Below are positions 841-9,034 of a DNA stretch of 9,034 nucleotides, in pieces. The DNA comes from Thermoplasmata archaeon (GTDB lineage: Archaea; Thermoplasmatota; Thermoplasmata; Thermoplasmatales; Thermoplasmataceae): contig JAKBQO010000053.1 in the NCBI GenBank assembly GCA_021835185.1, positions 1 to 9,034 on the forward strand, written 5' to 3'. The notes under the pieces were generated by a model. That model was not told where the DNA came from. It saw only the letters and a program-made list of their open reading frames with translations, and did no database searches. Made by a program: the position numbers and the translations under genes. Within the stretch, counting starts at the first letter, position 1; every line of letters begins with the position of its first letter.

Positions 841-862
841 AAACATATCCGGATATATGTTT
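841..862. promoter_or_regulatory. Promoter-proximal palindrome abutting the dehydratase TATA box, candidate operator
   Basis: A 22-base near-palindrome: outer arms AAACAT (841-846) and ATGTTT (857-862) enclose a perfect 12-base core ATATCCGGATAT at 845-856; the two dyad centres differ by one base. The likely TATA/BRE stretch TTTAATACTTA begins at 860, about 25-34 bases before the ATG at 894, so a bound protein would touch the BRE/TATA region. The half-site matches the palindrome at 795-812. Position and symmetry suggest control of the dehydratase gene. Confidence 0.55.
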
Positions 863-893: not shown

Positions 894-2003
894 ATGAAAG
901 TTGAAAGTATTAAAATAATCGGCAGGGAAAAGGTTAAACAGCCTGTGTATAAATACGTAAAACCCACAGATTACTACAAGGACATACTTGGCGAGGTATC
1001 TCCAACCGAGGCTGCAATGATAAACGAAGTTTGCACCCTTGAAATGAAGGCCGGGGAATACAGTTCATACTATAATACAACCTCTGATGTGGCATCTTTT
1101 GTAATGGAATTTTCTGGCAAGCTTAAGGAATTTAACATCTCGGAAATCAATATGGCATGGGATATGCTTTACAGGCTTTCCCTTCCCCTTGGCAGGTCGG
1201 GCGTGATGATGCACGCACTCAGTGCTGTGAACATAATGATGTACGATATATATTCTAAATCGCTCAATGTCCCTGCATATAAAATAATGGGTGGGGCAAC
1301 GAGAAAACGCATAAGGGCATATGCCTCCCATCTGCACCCAACGGATCTGAAAGAACTCCGGAAAGAGGCGGAAGAATACGTTTCCCAGGGATATAAAACA
1401 ATGAAAATGAGGTTTATTTCGGGCCCATCGGATATTAACGGGCTGGAGAAAAATATAGAACTTGTCAAAACAATAAGGGACGCTGTGGGATATGACGTGG
1501 AACTTGCAGGAGATGCATGGATGTCATGGAACTATAATTTTGCCCTGAAGATGGTAAAGAAACTGGAGAGGTACGATATGGCCTGGGTTGAGGAGCCATT
1601 GATGCCTGATGATTTCGATGCTATGAAAATGCTATCGTGGAAGACCGGAATTCCAATTTCTGAAGGAGAACACCATTACCATGTATATGACTTCAAGCGG
1701 TTGCTTGATGCGGGAATAAGGATATTGCAGCCCGATGCTGTATGGACCGGTGGAATAACACCTATGAAAAAAATTGTTGCCTTAGCTGAAACCTACGGAG
1801 CCATAGTAGTTCCACATACGGGAAATATCTACAATTTGCATGTAATCGGCTCAGAACCTGAGAGCGTCACGCCTGTGGCTGAATTCCTGACAAAATACAG
1901 GGAATGGATGGAACAGCACATGGAGGGCACGCTGTTTCCGGAGAAAGGCTACTTTACATTGAGCGATAAGCCGGGATTCGGATTGGAATACAAACCACAG
2001 TAA
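894..2003 (+). CDS. Enolase-superfamily sugar-acid dehydratase, probable L-rhamnonate dehydratase
   Basis: 369 residues, a full-length mandelate racemase/muconate lactonizing-type enzyme: N-terminal capping domain to about residue 135, then the barrel. Expected catalytic residues are present: K171-x-R173 at the end of strand 2, metal ligands D207 (AGDAWM), E233 (WVEEP) and E259 (SEGEHH), and the His-Asp dyad D281 (LQPD) and H308 (VPHTG). The run GEHH, then about 20 residues to LQPDAVWTGGIT, VVPHTG, and the C-terminal DKPGFGLE resemble L-rhamnonate dehydratases more than archaeal gluconate dehydratases, from memory of those families. Expected reaction: L-rhamnonate to 2-keto-3-deoxy-L-rhamnonate plus water, Mg-dependent, cytoplasmic. 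It faces the aldolase gene tail to tail with 11 bases between. No SD precedes the ATG; TATA spacing suggests a leaderless or nearly leaderless mRNA. Fuconate, mannonate-like or broader sugar-acid specificity is possible; superfamily membership is secure. Confidence 0.85.
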   Translation: MKVESIKIIGREKVKQPVYKYVKPTDYYKDILGEVSPTEAAMINEVCTLEMKAGEYSSYYNTTSDVASFVMEFSGKLKEFNISEINMAWDMLYRLSLPLGRSGVMMHALSAVNIMMYDIYSKSLNVPAYKIMGGATRKRIRAYASHLHPTDLKELRKEAEEYVSQGYKTMKMRFISGPSDINGLEKNIELVKTIRDAVGYDVELAGDAWMSWNYNFALKMVKKLERYDMAWVEEPLMPDDFDAMKMLSWKTGIPISEGEHHYHVYDFKRLLDAGIRILQPDAVWTGGITPMKKIVALAETYGAIVVPHTGNIYNLHVIGSEPESVTPVAEFLTKYREWMEQHMEGTLFPEKGYFTLSDKPGFGLEYKPQ

Positions 2004-2014
2004 TCAATATACCA

Positions 2015-2893
2015 TTAAATCCAGATCTTATCGAGAATCATATTTAATTTTGAATCCATCCGGCCTGGCATTTCAGGTTCCGGGCTTCTAACATTTGTAT
2101 ATATTATTATTTTTCTCCTGTACAGTATTTTCTTTTCTATCTGGACAAAGAATTTTAGATTTTCTGCTTCAAATCCAAGCAATTCCTGAATTTTGCTGAA
2201 ATCATCAATATACGTTTTATCATTGTTTCGGTATTTTTCATAAACTCCGGATAATATATCCAGAAATGCCAATCCTGTTATAGACCCATCAGAACTATTG
2301 TTCAACTCATTAACCATATCGAAGCCAAGATACCCGCCAAGAATGGAAATATCAGGAAAATTGGTATGCAGTAAATGTATTCTCCTGGCACTGTCCTTGC
2401 CTTCTGTTTTTATTCCTGCTATATTATTGGCCGCTATGGTTTTCAATAATTTTAATGGCATATTAGACCGGTATCCAAAATCCTGTATAATTACAGGAAT
2501 ATCTATGGAGTTAGATATATCAATAAAATGCTTTGCTATTATGCTATTCTCAAGTTTTCCATACGGGTAATAGTATGGAGGCATTAAAATTATACCAGAA
2601 ACCCCAGAATCCCTTGCTTTTTCTGCAAGTTTTGCCGCAGCAAATGTTGCCGGTTCGGATACTCCTGCGAATATTTTAATTCGCTTCCTGAATTTACTTA
2701 CATTATTAATTATTTCAATTTTTTCATTGAATGTTAATTTATAGAATTCACCGCCGAGGAGCATTGGCGCAATGGCACCGGCACCTGATTTAATTGCAAA
2801 TTCGATGCAGTTTTCAATTCCATCGAAATCTATTTCCATATTATCTTTAAATATTGTTGGTATTGCAGGAATTACCCCGCTGATCGGTTTCAT
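2015..2893 (-). CDS. DapA-family class I aldolase, probable 2-keto-3-deoxy-L-rhamnonate aldolase
   Basis: 292 residues, the normal size for the dihydrodipicolinate synthase/N-acetylneuraminate lyase family of Schiff-base aldolases. Motifs in order: GVIPAIPTIF at 6-15, LGGEFYKLTFNEK at 46-58 (GE...LT..E region), AGVSEPAT near 76-83, MPPYYYP at 104-110, and the Schiff-base lysine K162 in GIKTEG. The tyrosine of the usual YN-P motif is replaced by IIQDFGY at 135-141, a QD variant that occurs in uncharacterised relatives. Context suggests cleavage of 2-keto-3-deoxy-L-rhamnonate to pyruvate and L-lactaldehyde; true dihydrodipicolinate synthase is less likely in this sugar-acid setting. Promoter: on the minus strand a T/A-rich TTTAAATAC box lies about 20 bases before the ATG, consistent with leaderless transcription. 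It diverges from the MBL gene. Substrate is inferred; general KDG/KDGal aldolase activity is the main alternative. Confidence 0.8.
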   Translation of the reverse strand: MKPISGVIPAIPTIFKDNMEIDFDGIENCIEFAIKSGAGAIAPMLLGGEFYKLTFNEKIEIINNVSKFRKRIKIFAGVSEPATFAAAKLAEKARDSGVSGIILMPPYYYPYGKLENSIIAKHFIDISNSIDIPVIIQDFGYRSNMPLKLLKTIAANNIAGIKTEGKDSARRIHLLHTNFPDISILGGYLGFDMVNELNNSSDGSITGLAFLDILSGVYEKYRNNDKTYIDDFSKIQELLGFEAENLKFFVQIEKKILYRRKIIIYTNVRSPEPEMPGRMDSKLNMILDKIWI

Positions 2894-2984
2894 ACTATCA
2901 TAATGGTGTATTTAAATTAAAATCTTCCCCGGAAATGTATGGAAAATATTTTATTTACTGTTCATTTATGATTATCTGGTATAA
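2894..2984. promoter_or_regulatory. Divergent promoter region between aldolase and MBL-fold genes
   Basis: 91 bases serve two leaderless-looking genes. On the minus strand a TATA-like box spans about 2908-2920; on the plus strand ATATTTTATTTA spans 2946-2957, 28-39 bases before the ATG at 2985. Between them, TTCC-CC-GGAA at 2925-2934 is a short dyad containing CCGG, like the core of the palindrome at 841-862 but with much weaker symmetry. No SD motif precedes either start. Confidence 0.5.
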
Positions 2985-3743
2985 ATGGCTCAAAATGTAT
3001 TCAGGGTTAAGGTTTTTAAGGTAGGGGAATCAGATGTACCTGCGCCGGAAGTTTACAGGATGTCCGGATGGGGAAACTGGGAAACCCTACATTTTCATAT
3101 GATAATGGCATATAACGACGAAACAAATTTCCTGATAAATGCTGGAATGCCAGTGGACATGGAAGAAAGAAACCGTGCAATGGTTGAGTTCGCAGGCAGC
3201 AGGGCAAAATTCACATCCAGTGATTCCATAGAAACTTTAAGGAAAGCTGGATTTAAGCCGGAAGATGTTAAAAATATCTCATTTACTCCCTTACAGGACT
3301 ACACTACCGGAAGGGCGGATGAATTTAAGAATGCAACATACCATATATTGAAGAAAGGATGGATTAATGATATTATGGTACCTGGCCCACACAACGATAA
3401 TAGGAATCTATTTATCCCTGAAAATGTGCTTCAATACCTTTTATTTGAGGCAAAAGACAGAATTCACTTTTTTGATGCAGAAAATATTACTGAACTGATA
3501 CCAGGAATCAGTGCACTATGGGTAGGGTGCCACCACAGGGCATCGCTGGCCTTTATCATTAACACAGGCAAAGGCAAAATAATATTCACAGACGCATCCT
3601 TTAAAAGCTCAAATATACTTAAAAGCATACCAATGGGGATAGCAGAAAATATTTTTGAATGTTACAGTGCATATGATAAATTAAAATTATACGTAAATGT
3701 ACTATCTGCATATGACCCTGATATAGATGGGCTTGAATTTTAG
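2985..3743 (+). CDS. Metallo-beta-lactamase-fold protein with degenerate metal site, candidate sugar lactonase
   Basis: 252 residues with the layout of the AHL-lactonase (AiiA/AttM-like) branch: INAG at 51-54, a helix then KPEDVKNISFTPLQDYTTG at 91-109, CHHRASLAFIINTGKGKIIFTDA at 182-204, and a terminal SAYDPD at 241-246. The canonical HxHxDH motif aligns with T101, L103, D105 and Y106, so only the aspartate survives; a later histidine (H183 or H184) and D203 remain, and the last His aligns with Tyr. It therefore keeps the fold but probably not the normal two-metal site. Between the aldolase and transporter genes of a rhamnose locus, the missing role is opening of L-rhamnono-1,4-lactone, hence the proposal. 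A binding or regulatory protein, or an enzyme on a different lactone, are alternatives. The frame looks intact, not decaying. The leaderless start fits its TATA box. Confidence 0.65.
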   Translation: MAQNVFRVKVFKVGESDVPAPEVYRMSGWGNWETLHFHMIMAYNDETNFLINAGMPVDMEERNRAMVEFAGSRAKFTSSDSIETLRKAGFKPEDVKNISFTPLQDYTTGRADEFKNATYHILKKGWINDIMVPGPHNDNRNLFIPENVLQYLLFEAKDRIHFFDAENITELIPGISALWVGCHHRASLAFIINTGKGKIIFTDASFKSSNILKSIPMGIAENIFECYSAYDKLKLYVNVLSAYDPDIDGLEF

Positions 3744-3932
3744 AAACATATAATCTATAAATTCAATCAAATAATTGCCCGAATGTATTGTTATACATTG
3801 ATTCAAACATACAGGGGTACACACACTATCCCTTTATATATTGTATATAATATATGCATTATGCAGTATACTATGGAATAGTTTGGGAATTACTATATAT
3901 ACACTAATGGAAATATATTTTAAGGTGAACTT
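3744..3932 (+). promoter_or_regulatory. Long leader/promoter region of the MFS gene with two inverted repeats
   Basis: 189 bases, the longest promoter region in the locus. AATGTAT-TGTT-ATACATT at 3782-3799 is a perfect 7-base-arm palindrome. AGGGGTA-N7-TATCCCT at 3813-3833 is an inverted repeat with one mismatch. TATA-like candidates are TTTATATA at 3833-3840 and CTATATAT at 3893-3900; the latter is 33-40 bases before the ATG at 3933. The SD GGTGA at 3924-3928, four bases from the ATG, shows this mRNA has a leader, unlike most neighbours. The palindromes sit where an activator or repressor could act on the upstream TATA box. Confidence 0.5.
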
Positions 3933-5294
3933 ATGGTAGATAGTAAAACTTATGACGATGCTGCGCTCTCATCAACTCATTTCAAGTGGACTTTTATTGC
4001 ATCACTTGGAGATTTTTTGGACGCTGGTATGCTTGCAGGTACCGGAATAACTCTTCTGGCTATCGGAACATTGCTGAATTTTACAACCCTGGAAGATGGG
4101 TTACCTGCATTGATTACACTCCTGGGTGCTGCATTTGGAGCACTTGGATTCGGAAGGTTAGGAGATAAATTTGGTAGAAAATTTATTTATCAGGTTGATA
4201 TGATAATATATGGCGTATCTGCAATATTGCTCGCAATAACTGGAATTTTCCCCAGCCGTATTTTTAATATAGTCTGGGCAATGGTATTTTATGCCCTTGT
4301 TGGAATAGCAGTAGGTGCTGACGTTCCCACATCCTGGAGCCTGATAACTGAATTCTCGCCAAAAAATTATCGTGGCAGATTGATGAGCATTACAACAATA
4401 ATGTGGTATGTCGGTGTCCTTGTGGAGCTTGGAATAGCGATAGCACTGTACAACACAGGCATGGTATTATTCAGGGTCATATGGATTATGCTCGGTTTAC
4501 TCGCCTTTGTGAGCTGGTTACTGAGAAGAAACCTTACAGAATCTCCAAGATATGATATGATGCGTGGAAATAAAACAGACCTGCAGAAATCTGCTAAACT
4601 GCTTCACATAGATATTAAGGATGAGGAAAACAAAAAATTCACGATAGACAAGTATAAGGAACTTTTCAAGAAATATGGATGGTTCATGCTACTGGCCTGG
4701 TTTTTATACCTTATGTGGGGAATACCTGCTTCTACATACGGTGAGTTTTTCCCGTACATATTCAGTTCGCTTCATCTGGTAAGCCTTAGAGACACATATG
4801 CATTTGAGGCCATTTACTTTGGAAGTGCTATTGTCCCCGGACTGTTAATATTTTATTATTTATCAGACCGTGTGGGGAGAGTTCCGCTTTACCTTGCAAG
4901 CGCTGCAATGGCGGCAGTATCATTTTTCCTTCTCGTTTATCCGCCATTCCTTAAAAACGTATACGTTCTACTGGCTTCATTCCTGCTATTCGGTATTGGC
5001 CAGGGGCTCGGTATCTGGACCACCACAAGGCTGCTATCACTGGAACATTTCCCTACAAGCCTCAGAAACTCCGGACAGGGGTTTGTCTGGTTTACTATGA
5101 GGTTCGAAGCAGGGATATTCGGGTTATTCACACCGATGATAGTTGCGTTTGGTATTGAGTATATAGGATATATAGCAGGGGCTTTCTTTGTTCTAGCATT
5201 TATAGTGGTAACACTGCTTTACATATTTAAGCCGGAATATGTGAGAACTGAAAGAAAATCACTGGAGGAAACTTCGAGAGATGTGGTGAAATAA
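3933..5294 (+). CDS. MFS sugar/metabolite:H+ symporter, probable L-rhamnose transporter
   Basis: 453 residues with about twelve hydrophobic membrane segments, a full-length major facilitator. The family A-motif GRLGDKFGRK is at 74-83 (loop 2-3) and repeats as LSDRVGR at 310-316 (loop 8-9), the internal duplication expected of MFS. TM1 carries acidic residues (GDFLDAG, D27 and D30), as in proton-coupled sugar porters and metabolite:H+ symporters. Also seen are EFSPKNYRGR at 140-149 and LTESPRY at 201-207 (PESPR-like end of TM6), followed by a charged central cytoplasmic loop to about 248. The start is supported by GGTGA four bases upstream. Its place among rhamnose-oxidation genes suggests uptake of L-rhamnose or a related sugar or sugar acid driven by the large proton gradient of an acidophile. 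Substrate cannot be read from sequence. Confidence 0.85.
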   Translation: MVDSKTYDDAALSSTHFKWTFIASLGDFLDAGMLAGTGITLLAIGTLLNFTTLEDGLPALITLLGAAFGALGFGRLGDKFGRKFIYQVDMIIYGVSAILLAITGIFPSRIFNIVWAMVFYALVGIAVGADVPTSWSLITEFSPKNYRGRLMSITTIMWYVGVLVELGIAIALYNTGMVLFRVIWIMLGLLAFVSWLLRRNLTESPRYDMMRGNKTDLQKSAKLLHIDIKDEENKKFTIDKYKELFKKYGWFMLLAWFLYLMWGIPASTYGEFFPYIFSSLHLVSLRDTYAFEAIYFGSAIVPGLLIFYYLSDRVGRVPLYLASAAMAAVSFFLLVYPPFLKNVYVLLASFLLFGIGQGLGIWTTTRLLSLEHFPTSLRNSGQGFVWFTMRFEAGIFGLFTPMIVAFGIEYIGYIAGAFFVLAFIVVTLLYIFKPEYVRTERKSLEETSRDVVK

Positions 5295-5333
5295 CTGGAT
5301 ATTATAAAATTATATTATAATTTAAATATTTAT

Positions 5334-5390
5334 TATTTTTTGTAACAATCATGCCATTTAACAGATGCACATGTCTGTATTTTTTGTAAC
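5334..5390 (+). terminator. T-run terminator region after the MFS gene, with a 13-base direct repeat
   Basis: TATTTTTTGTAAC occurs exactly at 5334-5346 and 5378-5390, a 44-base period. Between the copies, ACAGA (5361-5365) and TCTGT (5374-5378) form a small inverted repeat leading directly into the second T6 run. Archaeal terminators are mainly T-runs, so this 40-96 bases after the MFS stop at 5294 is a reasonable double terminator. The repeat could also be chance in such AT-rich DNA. Confidence 0.4.
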
Positions 5391-5485
5391 TATGAGATTC
5401 AAAATAAGAAATGTAAAACGATCTAAGTGATTATACAATATTTTTAATCTTAAATACCTACGGCAAGATATTATTATCCTGTATA

Positions 5486-5665
5486 ATGGGTAAAAAATAT
5501 AACCCGTTATAAGAATAACCGCTGTTATATCAAAAATTTAATAATATAGTAACTCACATGAGTTTTTCCGTCAAAATTATTATTAAATAAATTTACAAAT
5601 CCATCTACCAGAACGAAAGCCACTGAGTTTACGATGTGGATGAATTTCTGGAAATAAAGAAATAA
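5486..5665 (+). pseudogene. Possible decayed reading frame, transposase-like remnant
   Basis: A single plus-strand frame from ATG 5486 reads like protein interrupted by stops at 5510, 5516, 5588, 5624 and 5663: MGKKYNPL, then LLYQKFNNIVTHMSFSVKIIIK, then IYKSIYQNESH, then VYDVDEFLEIKK. A TTAAATAC box at 5450-5457 lies about 30 bases before the ATG, as for a real archaeal gene. The stretch is less AT-rich than the DNA on its right. The style recalls the N-terminus of a transposase, but I cannot name a family and the call rests on impression. It may simply be non-coding DNA. Confidence 0.25.
5498..5528. repeat. Two tandem ATAAC/GTTAT palindromes
   Basis: TATAAC-CC-GTTATA at 5498-5511 and ATAAC-CGCT-GTTAT at 5515-5528 are perfect inverted repeats lying 4 bases apart. 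The first has the same ATAAC-N2-GTTAT form as the palindrome at 7832-7849 upstream of the small conserved gene. A third perfect dyad, AACTCA-CA-TGAGTT, lies at 5551-5564. They overlap the possible decayed frame. They could be operators, hairpins from a mobile-element end, or chance. Confidence 0.4.
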
Positions 5666-5771
5666 ATGGAAATAATTTATATATTAAATTGATATAATAA
5701 AATTAAATGAATTATTAAAAATTAAAAATAGAAAATTAAATAATTATTTTAAGAAATATAATATAAATTTA
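5666..5771. other. Extremely AT-rich spacer, no gene
   Basis: About 105 bases of nearly pure A/T, with short runs such as AATTATTAAAAATTAAAAATAG. No coding frame, RNA gene or clear dyad is visible. TATA-like strings toward its right edge (about 5757-5775, ATATAATATAAATTTAAA) could act as a promoter for the tnpB tail/omega-RNA remnant that follows. Confidence 0.5.
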
Positions 5772-5903
5772 AATGTACCTATGGAGCGTAGGGAATTAAC
5801 GCCTGTGGAGATTATTGCCTCTGGCTTTGAAGGGCTTAATATAAGCCCCTATGTGAAGTTAAGCATGGTCAATGAAGCAGGAAGCCTCTATGCTTTAGCA
5901 TGA
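5772..5903 (+). pseudogene. tnpB: 3'-terminal remnant of IS200/IS605-family tnpB
   Basis: The plus frame ending at TGA 5901-5903 reads NVPMERRELTPVEIIA, then SGFEGLNISPYVKLSMVNEAGSLYALA. This is the characteristic low-conservation tail of archaeal TnpB proteins (ERRELTPVE... ...NEAGS), where the coding sequence runs into the element's right end. All upstream catalytic parts (RuvC-like DED residues and the zinc finger) are absent; the DNA to the left is AT-rich non-coding. From ATG 5781 it would encode only 40 residues, so it is a fragment, not a gene. The GC content jumps relative to the adjoining spacer. It converges on the rhamnose dehydrogenase gene, six bases from that gene's stop codon. 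Confidence 0.75.
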
Positions 5904-5913
5904 GGTAGTTCAC
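5781..5913 (+). ncRNA. Candidate orphan omega-RNA (reRNA) scaffold and IS right end
   Basis: Omega-RNAs of TnpB systems overlap the 3' end of tnpB and finish at the element's right end with a hairpin followed by a short TTCA-type end, after which flanking DNA gives the guide. Here the hairpin is at 5885-5905: CCTC (5885-5888), bulged T, ATGC, loop TTTA, GCAT, GAGG (5902-5905), then TAGTTCAC at 5906-5913. This agrees with IS605-family right ends. The 5' limit is arbitrary. The guide would start near 5911-5914 and run into the dehydrogenase 3' end as antisense sequence. With tnpB gone, function would need a TnpB in trans. Transcription is not shown. Confidence 0.5.
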
Positions 5914-6671
5914 TGTAAATTAACAAGCATGCCGCCGTCAACTAAAAGTTCAGCACCATTTATATATGTATTTTCATCGGAAACAAGGAATAAAGCCGGA
6001 GAAGCTATATCGGAAGGATTTCCCAATCTTCTTAGGGGTATTCTGTTTTCCATATACTCCCTTTTCTTTTTATTTGAAAGGTCTTCTGTGTTGATATCAG
6101 TAAGTATAGTACCAGGTTCCAGCGAATTAACCATTATCCCGTGCTCACCGAGTATTATGGCCAGTGAATGCATTAATCCATTCATAGCAGACTTTGTTGT
6201 GGTGTAATGTGCCTGAAATTTCCCGCCAACTATTGCGCTTATTGAGCTTATAAATAATATTTTTCCCTTAGTATTGTTCTCTATCATCATCTGTGAGACA
6301 CGCTGTGTGATGAAAAAATGGCTTTCCACATTGACTTTCCATACTTTTTCAAATAAATTCTGGTCTATATTAAAAAAATCCATGAACGGGCAAATTCCGG
6401 CATTGTTGACCAGCACATCCACTGTTTTGAACTTATCTTTAATAAATTTCATCAATCCATCTATTTCTCCTATATCCGACTGGTCTATCTTGTATTTTTC
6501 GCCTGAAACTCCCTTACTTCTTATATATTTCACAGTTTCATCCGCAGCATTGTCGTTGTTGCCATATGTAATTATAACATTTGCGCCGTTGTCTGCCAGA
6601 GCTTTTGCAATGCCATTCCCTATGCCTCTTGAACCACCTGTAACTATAGCATTTTTATTCCTGAAATCCAT
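5910..6671 (-). CDS. L-rhamnose 1-dehydrogenase (NADP+), short-chain dehydrogenase/reductase
   Basis: 253 residues, a classical SDR with TGGSRGIG at 11-18 (cofactor loop), NNAG at 89-92 and the catalytic set N114, S143, Y156, K160 (YTTTK). The basic residue in GGSRGIG and no acidic residue after strand 2 (VIITYGNND) fit NADP+ preference. From memory it closely matches the characterised Thermoplasma acidophilum L-rhamnose dehydrogenase Ta0747, notably NAGICPF.DFF, FEKVWKVNVESH.FITQR, ISSIS..VGG.FQ.HYTTTKSA, VNSLEPGTILTDIN.EDLSN and the terminal GGML.NLQ. That enzyme oxidises L-rhamnose to L-rhamnono-1,4-lactone and also accepts L-lyxose and L-mannose. It lies 9 bases downstream of the HTH_10 gene, so the two are co-transcribed; GGGGAT four bases before the ATG is the likely SD. 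Its stop codon overlaps the end of the tnpB-type right end. Published work calls the enzyme RhaD, a symbol also used for an unrelated bacterial aldolase. Confidence 0.88.
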   Translation of the reverse strand: MDFRNKNAIVTGGSRGIGNGIAKALADNGANVIITYGNNDNAADETVKYIRSKGVSGEKYKIDQSDIGEIDGLMKFIKDKFKTVDVLVNNAGICPFMDFFNIDQNLFEKVWKVNVESHFFITQRVSQMMIENNTKGKILFISSISAIVGGKFQAHYTTTKSAMNGLMHSLAIILGEHGIMVNSLEPGTILTDINTEDLSNKKKREYMENRIPLRRLGNPSDIASPALFLVSDENTYINGAELLVDGGMLVNLQ

Positions 6672-6680
6672 TTTAATCCC

Positions 6681-7403
6681 CTACTCACCAAATTTCTTCA
6701 TCAAAAAATATCTATTCTTGCGGGTCCATTCATCCATGATTTTTCCCGTTGCTTTTCTCATGTATTCTTCCAGGGCTGACTTTGAAAGCCCTGTTATTGT
6801 AGCCAGTTCACTGAGATATTTTTCCCTGGGTATGTTAAAATACCCATTCTGGTAAGCCATATACACTGTAAATGCTTCCTGGTCAGTTAAATTGAATACA
6901 CTATCAATTTTTCCATTTTGCCTGTCGCTCTTCATATGGAAATAGGGCATCTCTCCAAGTTCTGACAGTGATGACTTTAAAGTTTTAACAGATTCAACAG
7001 GGACAATTGCCATTATATATTCAAAATTATCAGATATCAGGTCATTATGGTAAACAACATTGTTTTCATACAGCAAAGATACTATCATATTGCTATATTT
7101 TTCCTTGAATGAAACTTCATAAAGATTTTTTCTATAGGCACTGGAAGACACTCTTAAAATCTCGCTTATGGCACTGGACCGTTTGAAAAGTGTAAGGAAT
7201 TTTTTGAATTCCCTTTCTGATTCTGCCTTTATCTCCACAGTTCCGTAAATATAGTTATTGTCTTTATGCACATTGCTGCTAACCGTGTGTATATTAACAT
7301 TTAAGCCATCAGTAATCTCTGTCCAGCATCGTTCATGCCGCATCTGAAAATCAACTTCAACATATTCATGCCCATCATCTTCTCTAAATATCATATATAA
7401 CAA
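6681..7403 (-). CDS. HTH_10 (bacterio-opsin activator-type) transcription regulator
   Basis: 240 residues. The C-terminal 70 residues are a typical HTH_10 domain: LTDQEAFTVYMAYQNGYF at 172-189, then NIPREKYLSELATITGLSK (190-208) and SALEEYMRKATGKIM to 223. The N-terminal part has the short H..CW segment (H23, C26, W27) and an alpha/beta sensor-like region common in Thermoplasmatales and halophile members of this family; no known ligand fold is identifiable. It is the first gene of a two-gene operon with the L-rhamnose dehydrogenase, so it is the best candidate regulator of the locus, responding to the sugar or an intermediate. Start: ATG at 7403; an in-frame ATG three codons later (7394) is an alternative. 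Activator or repressor sign cannot be told from sequence. Confidence 0.85.
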   Translation of the reverse strand: MLYMIFREDDGHEYVEVDFQMRHERCWTEITDGLNVNIHTVSSNVHKDNNYIYGTVEIKAESEREFKKFLTLFKRSSAISEILRVSSSAYRKNLYEVSFKEKYSNMIVSLLYENNVVYHNDLISDNFEYIMAIVPVESVKTLKSSLSELGEMPYFHMKSDRQNGKIDSVFNLTDQEAFTVYMAYQNGYFNIPREKYLSELATITGLSKSALEEYMRKATGKIMDEWTRKNRYFLMKKFGE

Positions 7404-8852: not shown

Positions 8853-9034
8853 TTAATTTTGCAGTATATTTAGTTATTGTTATGATTGAACAAAATTGGC
8901 GGGTAAAATAATTGCATGTTCCGGATACCCTTTAACAATTATATCTCGTCAGAAAAAAAGAAAATAAGTACTCTAATTATTCCTATAATTGGCATTACTT
9001 CATAACTCCATATATCTGATTTGTATGTAATAGA

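Follow-up and report, generated by a model that had tools for sequence, protein, structure and literature searches.

The stretch analysed here, a 9,034-nucleotide window of a Thermoplasmata archaeon whose genome is a single contig of 1.94 Mb (the window lying at G000:C1:521513-530546 on the minus strand), carries six genes between positions 894 and 7403, all of which proved to be open frames where an initial annotation had placed them. An enolase-superfamily acid-sugar dehydratase gene (DEH, 894-2003, forward strand; Pfam MR_MLE_C), probably encoding an L-rhamnonate dehydratase, is followed on the reverse strand by ALD (2015-2893; Pfam DHDPS), a Schiff-base protein of the DHDPS family that resembles L-KDA dehydratase at Gln137, Lys162 and Glu164. 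Next on the forward strand come an MBL-fold protein without the HxHxDH motif (2985-3743), predicted to adopt an AHL-lactonase fold and a candidate L-rhamnono-lactonase, and an MFS transporter probably serving sugar uptake (3933-5294; Pfam MFS_1 and Sugar_tr). The reverse strand then holds an SDR-type L-rhamnose 1-dehydrogenase, probably NADP+-dependent (RDH, 5910-6671; NF041159), and an HTH_10 regulator (6681-7403; Pfam HTH_10), with 9 bases between the two genes. Pfam backs the families of five of the six proteins, the exception being the MBL-fold protein, which has no Pfam match, and an Rfam scan returned no match. From these sequences a locus for non-phosphorylating L-rhamnose oxidation in an archaeon is well supported, because the SDR scores above the cut-off of the L-rhamnose 1-dehydrogenase model and because a rhamnose mutarotase or alpha-L-rhamnosidase gene is its neighbour in several relatives; to that extent the initial annotation, which had proposed such a locus, is borne out, the dehydrogenase, candidate lactonase, dehydratase, transporter and regulator all being present.

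RDH scores 509 bits against NF041159 (L-rhamnose 1-dehydrogenase, Thermoplasmatales), passing the curated cut-off of 450. The SDR tetrad Asn114, Ser143, Tyr156 and Lys160 is kept in all 17 aligned sequences, and Arg15, at the NADP+-linked position, is an arginine in 15 of these, with one lysine and one gap. PMC12028159 links an arginine of the archaeal L-rhamnose dehydrogenase to NADP+, which is probably also the cofactor of RDH. When named genomes were scanned with RDH, five loci were returned, namely two pieces of one Thermoplasmata metagenome-assembled genome and three weak SDR matches (27-32%). The L-rhamnose dehydrogenase of T. acidophilum was reportedly described by Kim et al. in 2012; in the T. 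acidophilum-like genome G097 the orthologous SDR is 62% identical to RDH, with the same DEH, MBL, MFS and HTH_10 genes nearby, whereas its cluster, unlike the present locus, includes rhaM (rhamnose mutarotase), a zinc-type dehydrogenase and an FAH-family hydrolase, and its ALD is 29% identical and stands elsewhere in the cluster.

The top NCBIfam model for DEH is L-rhamnonate dehydratase (PRK15440), at 194 bits and below the cut-off of 393. Lys171, Asp207, Glu233, Glu259, Asp281 and His308 are conserved in all 19 orthologues and, going by the superfamily, should comprise the trio of metal ligands together with the Asp-His pair found in acid-sugar dehydratases. Because DEH reaches the cut-off of no named dehydratase, sequence does not settle its substrate, and the main sugar of the locus might instead be, for example, L-fucose or L-mannose. 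We regard this as very improbable: RDH passes the rhamnose equivalog, rhaM and GH78 genes are neighbours in relatives, and among solved structures the matches of DEH to L-fuconate dehydratase reach about 83 bits, those to L-rhamnonate dehydratase 142-148 bits. The top solved-structure matches of DEH bear other labels. L-rhamnonate dehydratase is the probable identity of DEH. Within 18 neighbourhood loci, several of them short contigs, an MFS orthologue of 66-91% identity is found in 11 and an HTH_10 homologue in 16. In many relatives rhaM adjoins the cluster or ALD, and a GH78 alpha-L-rhamnosidase adjoins RDH in G065 and lies about 6 kb off in G088. No alpha-L-rhamnosidase was found in the window's own genome, and its single RhaM gene lies away from the locus; the protein shares 47% identity with that of G097, and G060, a genome without the locus, has it too.

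The MBL-fold protein is matched weakly by the AiiA lactonase model of NCBIfam (E 1.7e-5), and its predicted fold (pLDDT 91) retrieves AHL lactonases in the top Foldseek rows with a TMq of about 0.79. Unlike the AiiA-type AHL lactonases whose fold it shares, its subfamily has lost the HxHxDH metal motif, which is absent from all 25 open reading frames and from all 44 database homologues (the window protein is one of the 44), and keeps another conserved residue set: P-x3-Y-x2-G, HH-x2-S and [TS]D-x2-F recur in 25 of 25 frames, including five paralogues of 25-31% identity. Sequence comparison with the PDB gave three matches, two of which are IcmE/DotG repeat proteins and were treated as spurious. 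The five paralogues stand beside other sugar-dehydrogenase-type genes: in G088 the company is an SDR, a transporter and a regulator, and in G063, G066, G068 and, in part, G088 it is a zinc-type dehydrogenase gene and a gene of weak GH88 likeness, in most cases with enolase-superfamily genes as well. These neighbourhoods fit a lactonase without proving it, and we read the protein as a candidate L-rhamnono-lactonase with an altered site. As a separate observation, the loci L083, L084, L085 and L082 form a second conserved cluster in G068, G063, G066 and partly G088, composed of enolase-superfamily, CoA-transferase family III, GH88-like, MBL-paralogue and zinc-type dehydrogenase genes.

Across 117 genomes of the order, RDH orthologues occur in 19 at 315 bits or more, some of them partial (next match 190), of which 11 pass the 450-bit cut-off, and the MBL-fold protein occurs in 20 at 278 bits or more (next match 115). 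The two are found together in 16 genomes (Fisher 2e-13, kinship not corrected), and because of this co-occurrence the gene grouping exceeds chance. DEH precedes the MBL gene on the same strand in all 20 MBL-bearing genomes and is its direct neighbour in 19. Judged from gene content, the core conserved across the order is the SDR, DEH and the MBL-fold protein. ALD is found in 14 genomes, all of which have the MBL-fold protein, and together with the dehydrogenase in 11 (kinship again not corrected); it lies between DEH and the MBL gene only in the window, and is absent from 8 of the 19 dehydrogenase-bearing genomes, some of which are incomplete. Three ALD genomes gave no dehydrogenase match: in G066 the contig breaks off within the MFS gene, G108 is represented by a short contig, and the third is G100. 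In G066, G067 and G068 an ALD of 30-35% identity has rhaM next to it, and the G068 copy is some 40 kb away from the main cluster. Recurrence of the gene set in other Thermoplasmatales, which the initial annotation had named as a check, is found for the core genes and not for the last step.

ALD itself does not read as the DapA-type class I aldolase that had been proposed for the final cleavage. By the features of class I aldolases of the DHDPS/NAL family, the Schiff-base lysine is in place (Lys162), but the catalytic tyrosine is replaced by Gln137, at a column where KDG-type aldolases retain Tyr, and Glu164 follows two residues past the lysine (Lys-x-Glu), as in L-KDA dehydratase. All 11 aligned members share Gln137, Lys162 and Glu164, and in a wider alignment the same residues appear in all rhamnose-linked rows reaching these columns (one row being a fragment), bar a degraded copy in G096 that keeps the glutamine with altered neighbouring residues. 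In the review PMC9795676, L-KDA dehydratase is described as having this Gln, Lys and Glu, with Glu173 unconserved in other family members. Structurally, ALD and L-KDA dehydratase (PDB 7C0C-7C0E, 3FKK) share a fold, with Gln143, Lys171 and Glu173 of the latter corresponding to Gln137, Lys162 and Glu164, and the ALD model (pLDDT 91) retrieves L-KDA dehydratase chains in all of Foldseek rows 1-9. Two points weigh on the other side: at an identity of about 20%, Glu199 and Glu200 of L-KDA dehydratase are replaced by Tyr188 and Leu189 in ALD (alignment to 3FKK/7C0C), and VIA-align does not separate L-KDA dehydratase from DHDPS for the ALD model. With Foldseek favouring L-KDA dehydratase and VIA-align tied, the fold was set aside as an arbiter between aldolase and dehydratase, and a PDB search with just the C-terminal part of ALD gave no related entry. 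Our reading is that ALD carries out dehydratase-type chemistry, as its active-site residues suggest, and we do not assign it to L-KDA dehydratase proper, given the loss of Glu200. PDB entry 3DZ1, labelled dihydrodipicolinate synthase, also has Gln-Asp and Lys-x-Glu at the ALD columns, and for this reason its label may be wrong.

Should ALD nevertheless be a class I aldolase for 2-keto-3-deoxy-L-rhamnonate (L-KDR), Gln137 and Glu164 would replace the tyrosine in yielding pyruvate and L-lactaldehyde. The Schiff-base lysine is compatible with this, as are the position of ALD in the locus behind a weak candidate operator and a genome lacking both the cluster-type dehydrogenase/hydrolase pair and an HpcH aldolase; moreover YagE, labelled 2-keto-3-deoxy-galactonate aldolase, is among the best solved matches of ALD and shares its GGEF motif. 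We nonetheless judge it unlikely, if a serious contender, as the Tyr-to-Gln exchange runs through the whole rhamnose-linked group, no NCBIfam aldolase model reaches its cut-off with ALD, and relatives that possess another cleavage module retain ALD: 7 of the 14 ALD genomes also have one or both diketo-hydrolase enzymes (dehydrogenase, hydrolase), and G065 has a KDG-type aldolase inside its cluster. Alternatively, ALD could serve a side substrate, given that the T. acidophilum enzyme also oxidises L-lyxose and L-mannose according to PMC12028159; were RDH to do likewise, ALD might dehydrate the resulting acid, for example L-KDA. This would agree with that substrate range, with the residue match to L-KDA dehydratase and with the optional nature of ALD in dehydrogenase-bearing genomes, yet Leu189 occupies the position of Glu200, the proposed base for the L-KDA C5 proton. 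L-lyxose is moreover rare in nature, and we hold a side-substrate role to be distinctly improbable. A family name alone does not make a DHDPS-family gene an aldolase, and the chemistry of Gln/Lys-x-Glu DHDPS proteins, like that of MBL proteins devoid of HxHxDH, is not readable from it.

Beyond the conserved core, the last step differs by lineage, and this exchange across the order, like the identity of RDH and the residues of ALD, can be read from the sequences themselves. The clusters of G097 and G102 contain, in addition, rhaM and genes for a zinc-type dehydrogenase and an FAH-family protein; the best NCBIfam model for the latter in G097 is 2,4-didehydro-3-deoxy-L-rhamnonate hydrolase (181 bits, cut-off 500). 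The dehydrogenase and FAH-family protein lie in the cluster in G094, G097-G100, G102, G104 and G107. This pair, absent from the present locus, corresponds to the diketo-hydrolase L-rhamnose pathway of Sphingomonas and Haloferax volcanii. Among 26 genomes searched for L-KDR dehydrogenase and hydrolase orthologues, the former occur in ten (at least 207 bits, next 174) and the latter in nine (at least 212 bits, next 192); only paralogues of these enzymes turned up in the 13 genomes that belong to genus g2 or to the genus of the window. A diketo-hydrolase route in the window's genome was accordingly rejected, its distant paralogues (33% and 43% identical over part) being present also in G060 without the locus. 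In G063 and G065 a KDG-type aldolase with the usual Tyr stands beside DEH and is their only close match to the KDG-type aldolase of the window's genome, which is unlinked (G000:C1:1702309-1703178). In the stretches read for G042 and G043 neither last-step module was seen. Genes downstream in G102 encode LUD and cysteine-rich domains of the lactate-utilisation type (the G102 pair was scanned). In line with the initial annotation, which had inferred an aldolase other than the HpcH-type class II enzyme, a search of the window's genome for HpcH/HpaI (PF03328) gave no match at E 0.001, with 10 of 14 control genomes matching. Compared with the fungal and bacterial LRA1-4 pathway, which employs a class II HpcH-type L-KDR aldolase, the first three steps would be the same, whereas this genome is without an HpcH/HpaI match and the locus has an MBL-type lactonase candidate; the usual L-rhamnono-lactonase of the LRA pathway belongs to another family. 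Separately, the zinc-type dehydrogenase at L033 10850-11602 (G097) reads in two frames, and at L116 2697-3800 (G101) pieces of the zinc-type dehydrogenase and RDH share one open frame; the pathway seems to be decaying in some Thermoplasma.

We favour an explanation in which the MFS transporter would import L-rhamnose, RDH would oxidise it to L-rhamnono-lactone, probably with NADP+, the MBL-fold protein would open the lactone, and DEH would dehydrate L-rhamnonate to L-KDR, with the HTH_10 protein probably regulating the locus. C-C cleavage to pyruvate and L-lactaldehyde would most likely fall to the unlinked KDG-type aldolase, and ALD would bind a 2-keto-3-deoxy acid as a Schiff base, with removal of the C3 proton and loss of the C4 hydroxyl but no retro-aldol cleavage. 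The KDG-type assignment is backed by G063 and G065, whose only close gene of this kind lies within the rhamnose cluster. We infer here the substrates of DEH, the MBL-fold protein and ALD as well as the L-KDR-cleaving enzyme, and taken whole, from front end through KDG-type cleavage to an ALD dehydratase, the explanation is tentative, with somewhat less than an even chance of holding. If true, L-rhamnose oxidation in these archaea would combine a fixed front end with an exchangeable last step. A bolder proposal, which we consider rather unlikely, is that Thermoplasmatales degrade L-rhamnose by two uncharacterised catalysts, a lactonase of the MBL fold active without the canonical metal site and a Schiff-base dehydratase for L-KDR, giving a third route next to those by aldolase and by diketo-hydrolase. 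A literature search, with subscription papers mostly outside its reach, found no description of the locus or of an archaeal L-KDR aldolase.

Two sites are candidate operators on sequence grounds: the palindrome ACATATCCGGATAT (843-856, forward strand) upstream of DEH and the weaker ACATTTCCGGGGAA (2925-2938, reverse strand) between the ALD and MBL starts. A site like ACATWTCCGGAWAT precedes DEH in 9 of the 11 genomes compared, G097 and G094 showing weak resemblance only, and the palindrome pattern has 2 matches in the window against 0.03 expected. The matrix was trained on the nine DEH-upstream sites, so that scores of those sites are circular; it gives the 2925-2938 site 13.5 bits, with other matches of equal strength in coding sequence, and yields 28 hits of at least 6.5 bits in the window, almost all of them within coding sequence, versus 7.2 in shuffles. 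Because hits are mostly coding and training is circular, the case for the two sites is confined to their position and conservation. Other hits in relatives precede MFS (G042, G102), ALD (G102, G108) and rhaM (G102, G109), and several loci (for example G094, G100 and the ALD-rhaM loci) have no strong hit before a locus gene. An 11-mer shared before four upstream regions was discarded, being no more frequent than in shuffles.

The locus is absent at this chromosomal site in four close relatives, G060, G061, G062 and G064. At the G062 site the DUF6015 and MoCF genes adjoin, about 1 kb separates them in G061 and one small gene in G064, and G060, the 'same species' genome, shows a rearrangement on that side. 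An aldehyde dehydrogenase gene (L051 8065-9378), just beyond window base 9034, adjoins an NTP-transferase gene; as lactaldehyde dehydrogenase of the locus it was rejected, since it is not locus-specific and is kept in G060, G061 and G064 without rhamnose genes. A small gene of about 237 residues (L034 11192-11905, L086 1175-1888, L090 2707-3426 and L111 8170-8883), with no Pfam match in the one copy scanned, occurs in the rhamnose clusters of G066-G068 and remains in G064, where the cluster is missing. Between MFS and RDH, a 230-base repeat (5680-5909) resembles one end of an insertion element, which we take to be IS605-like; the genome has five further copies of 97-99% identity, along with shorter or diverged ones.

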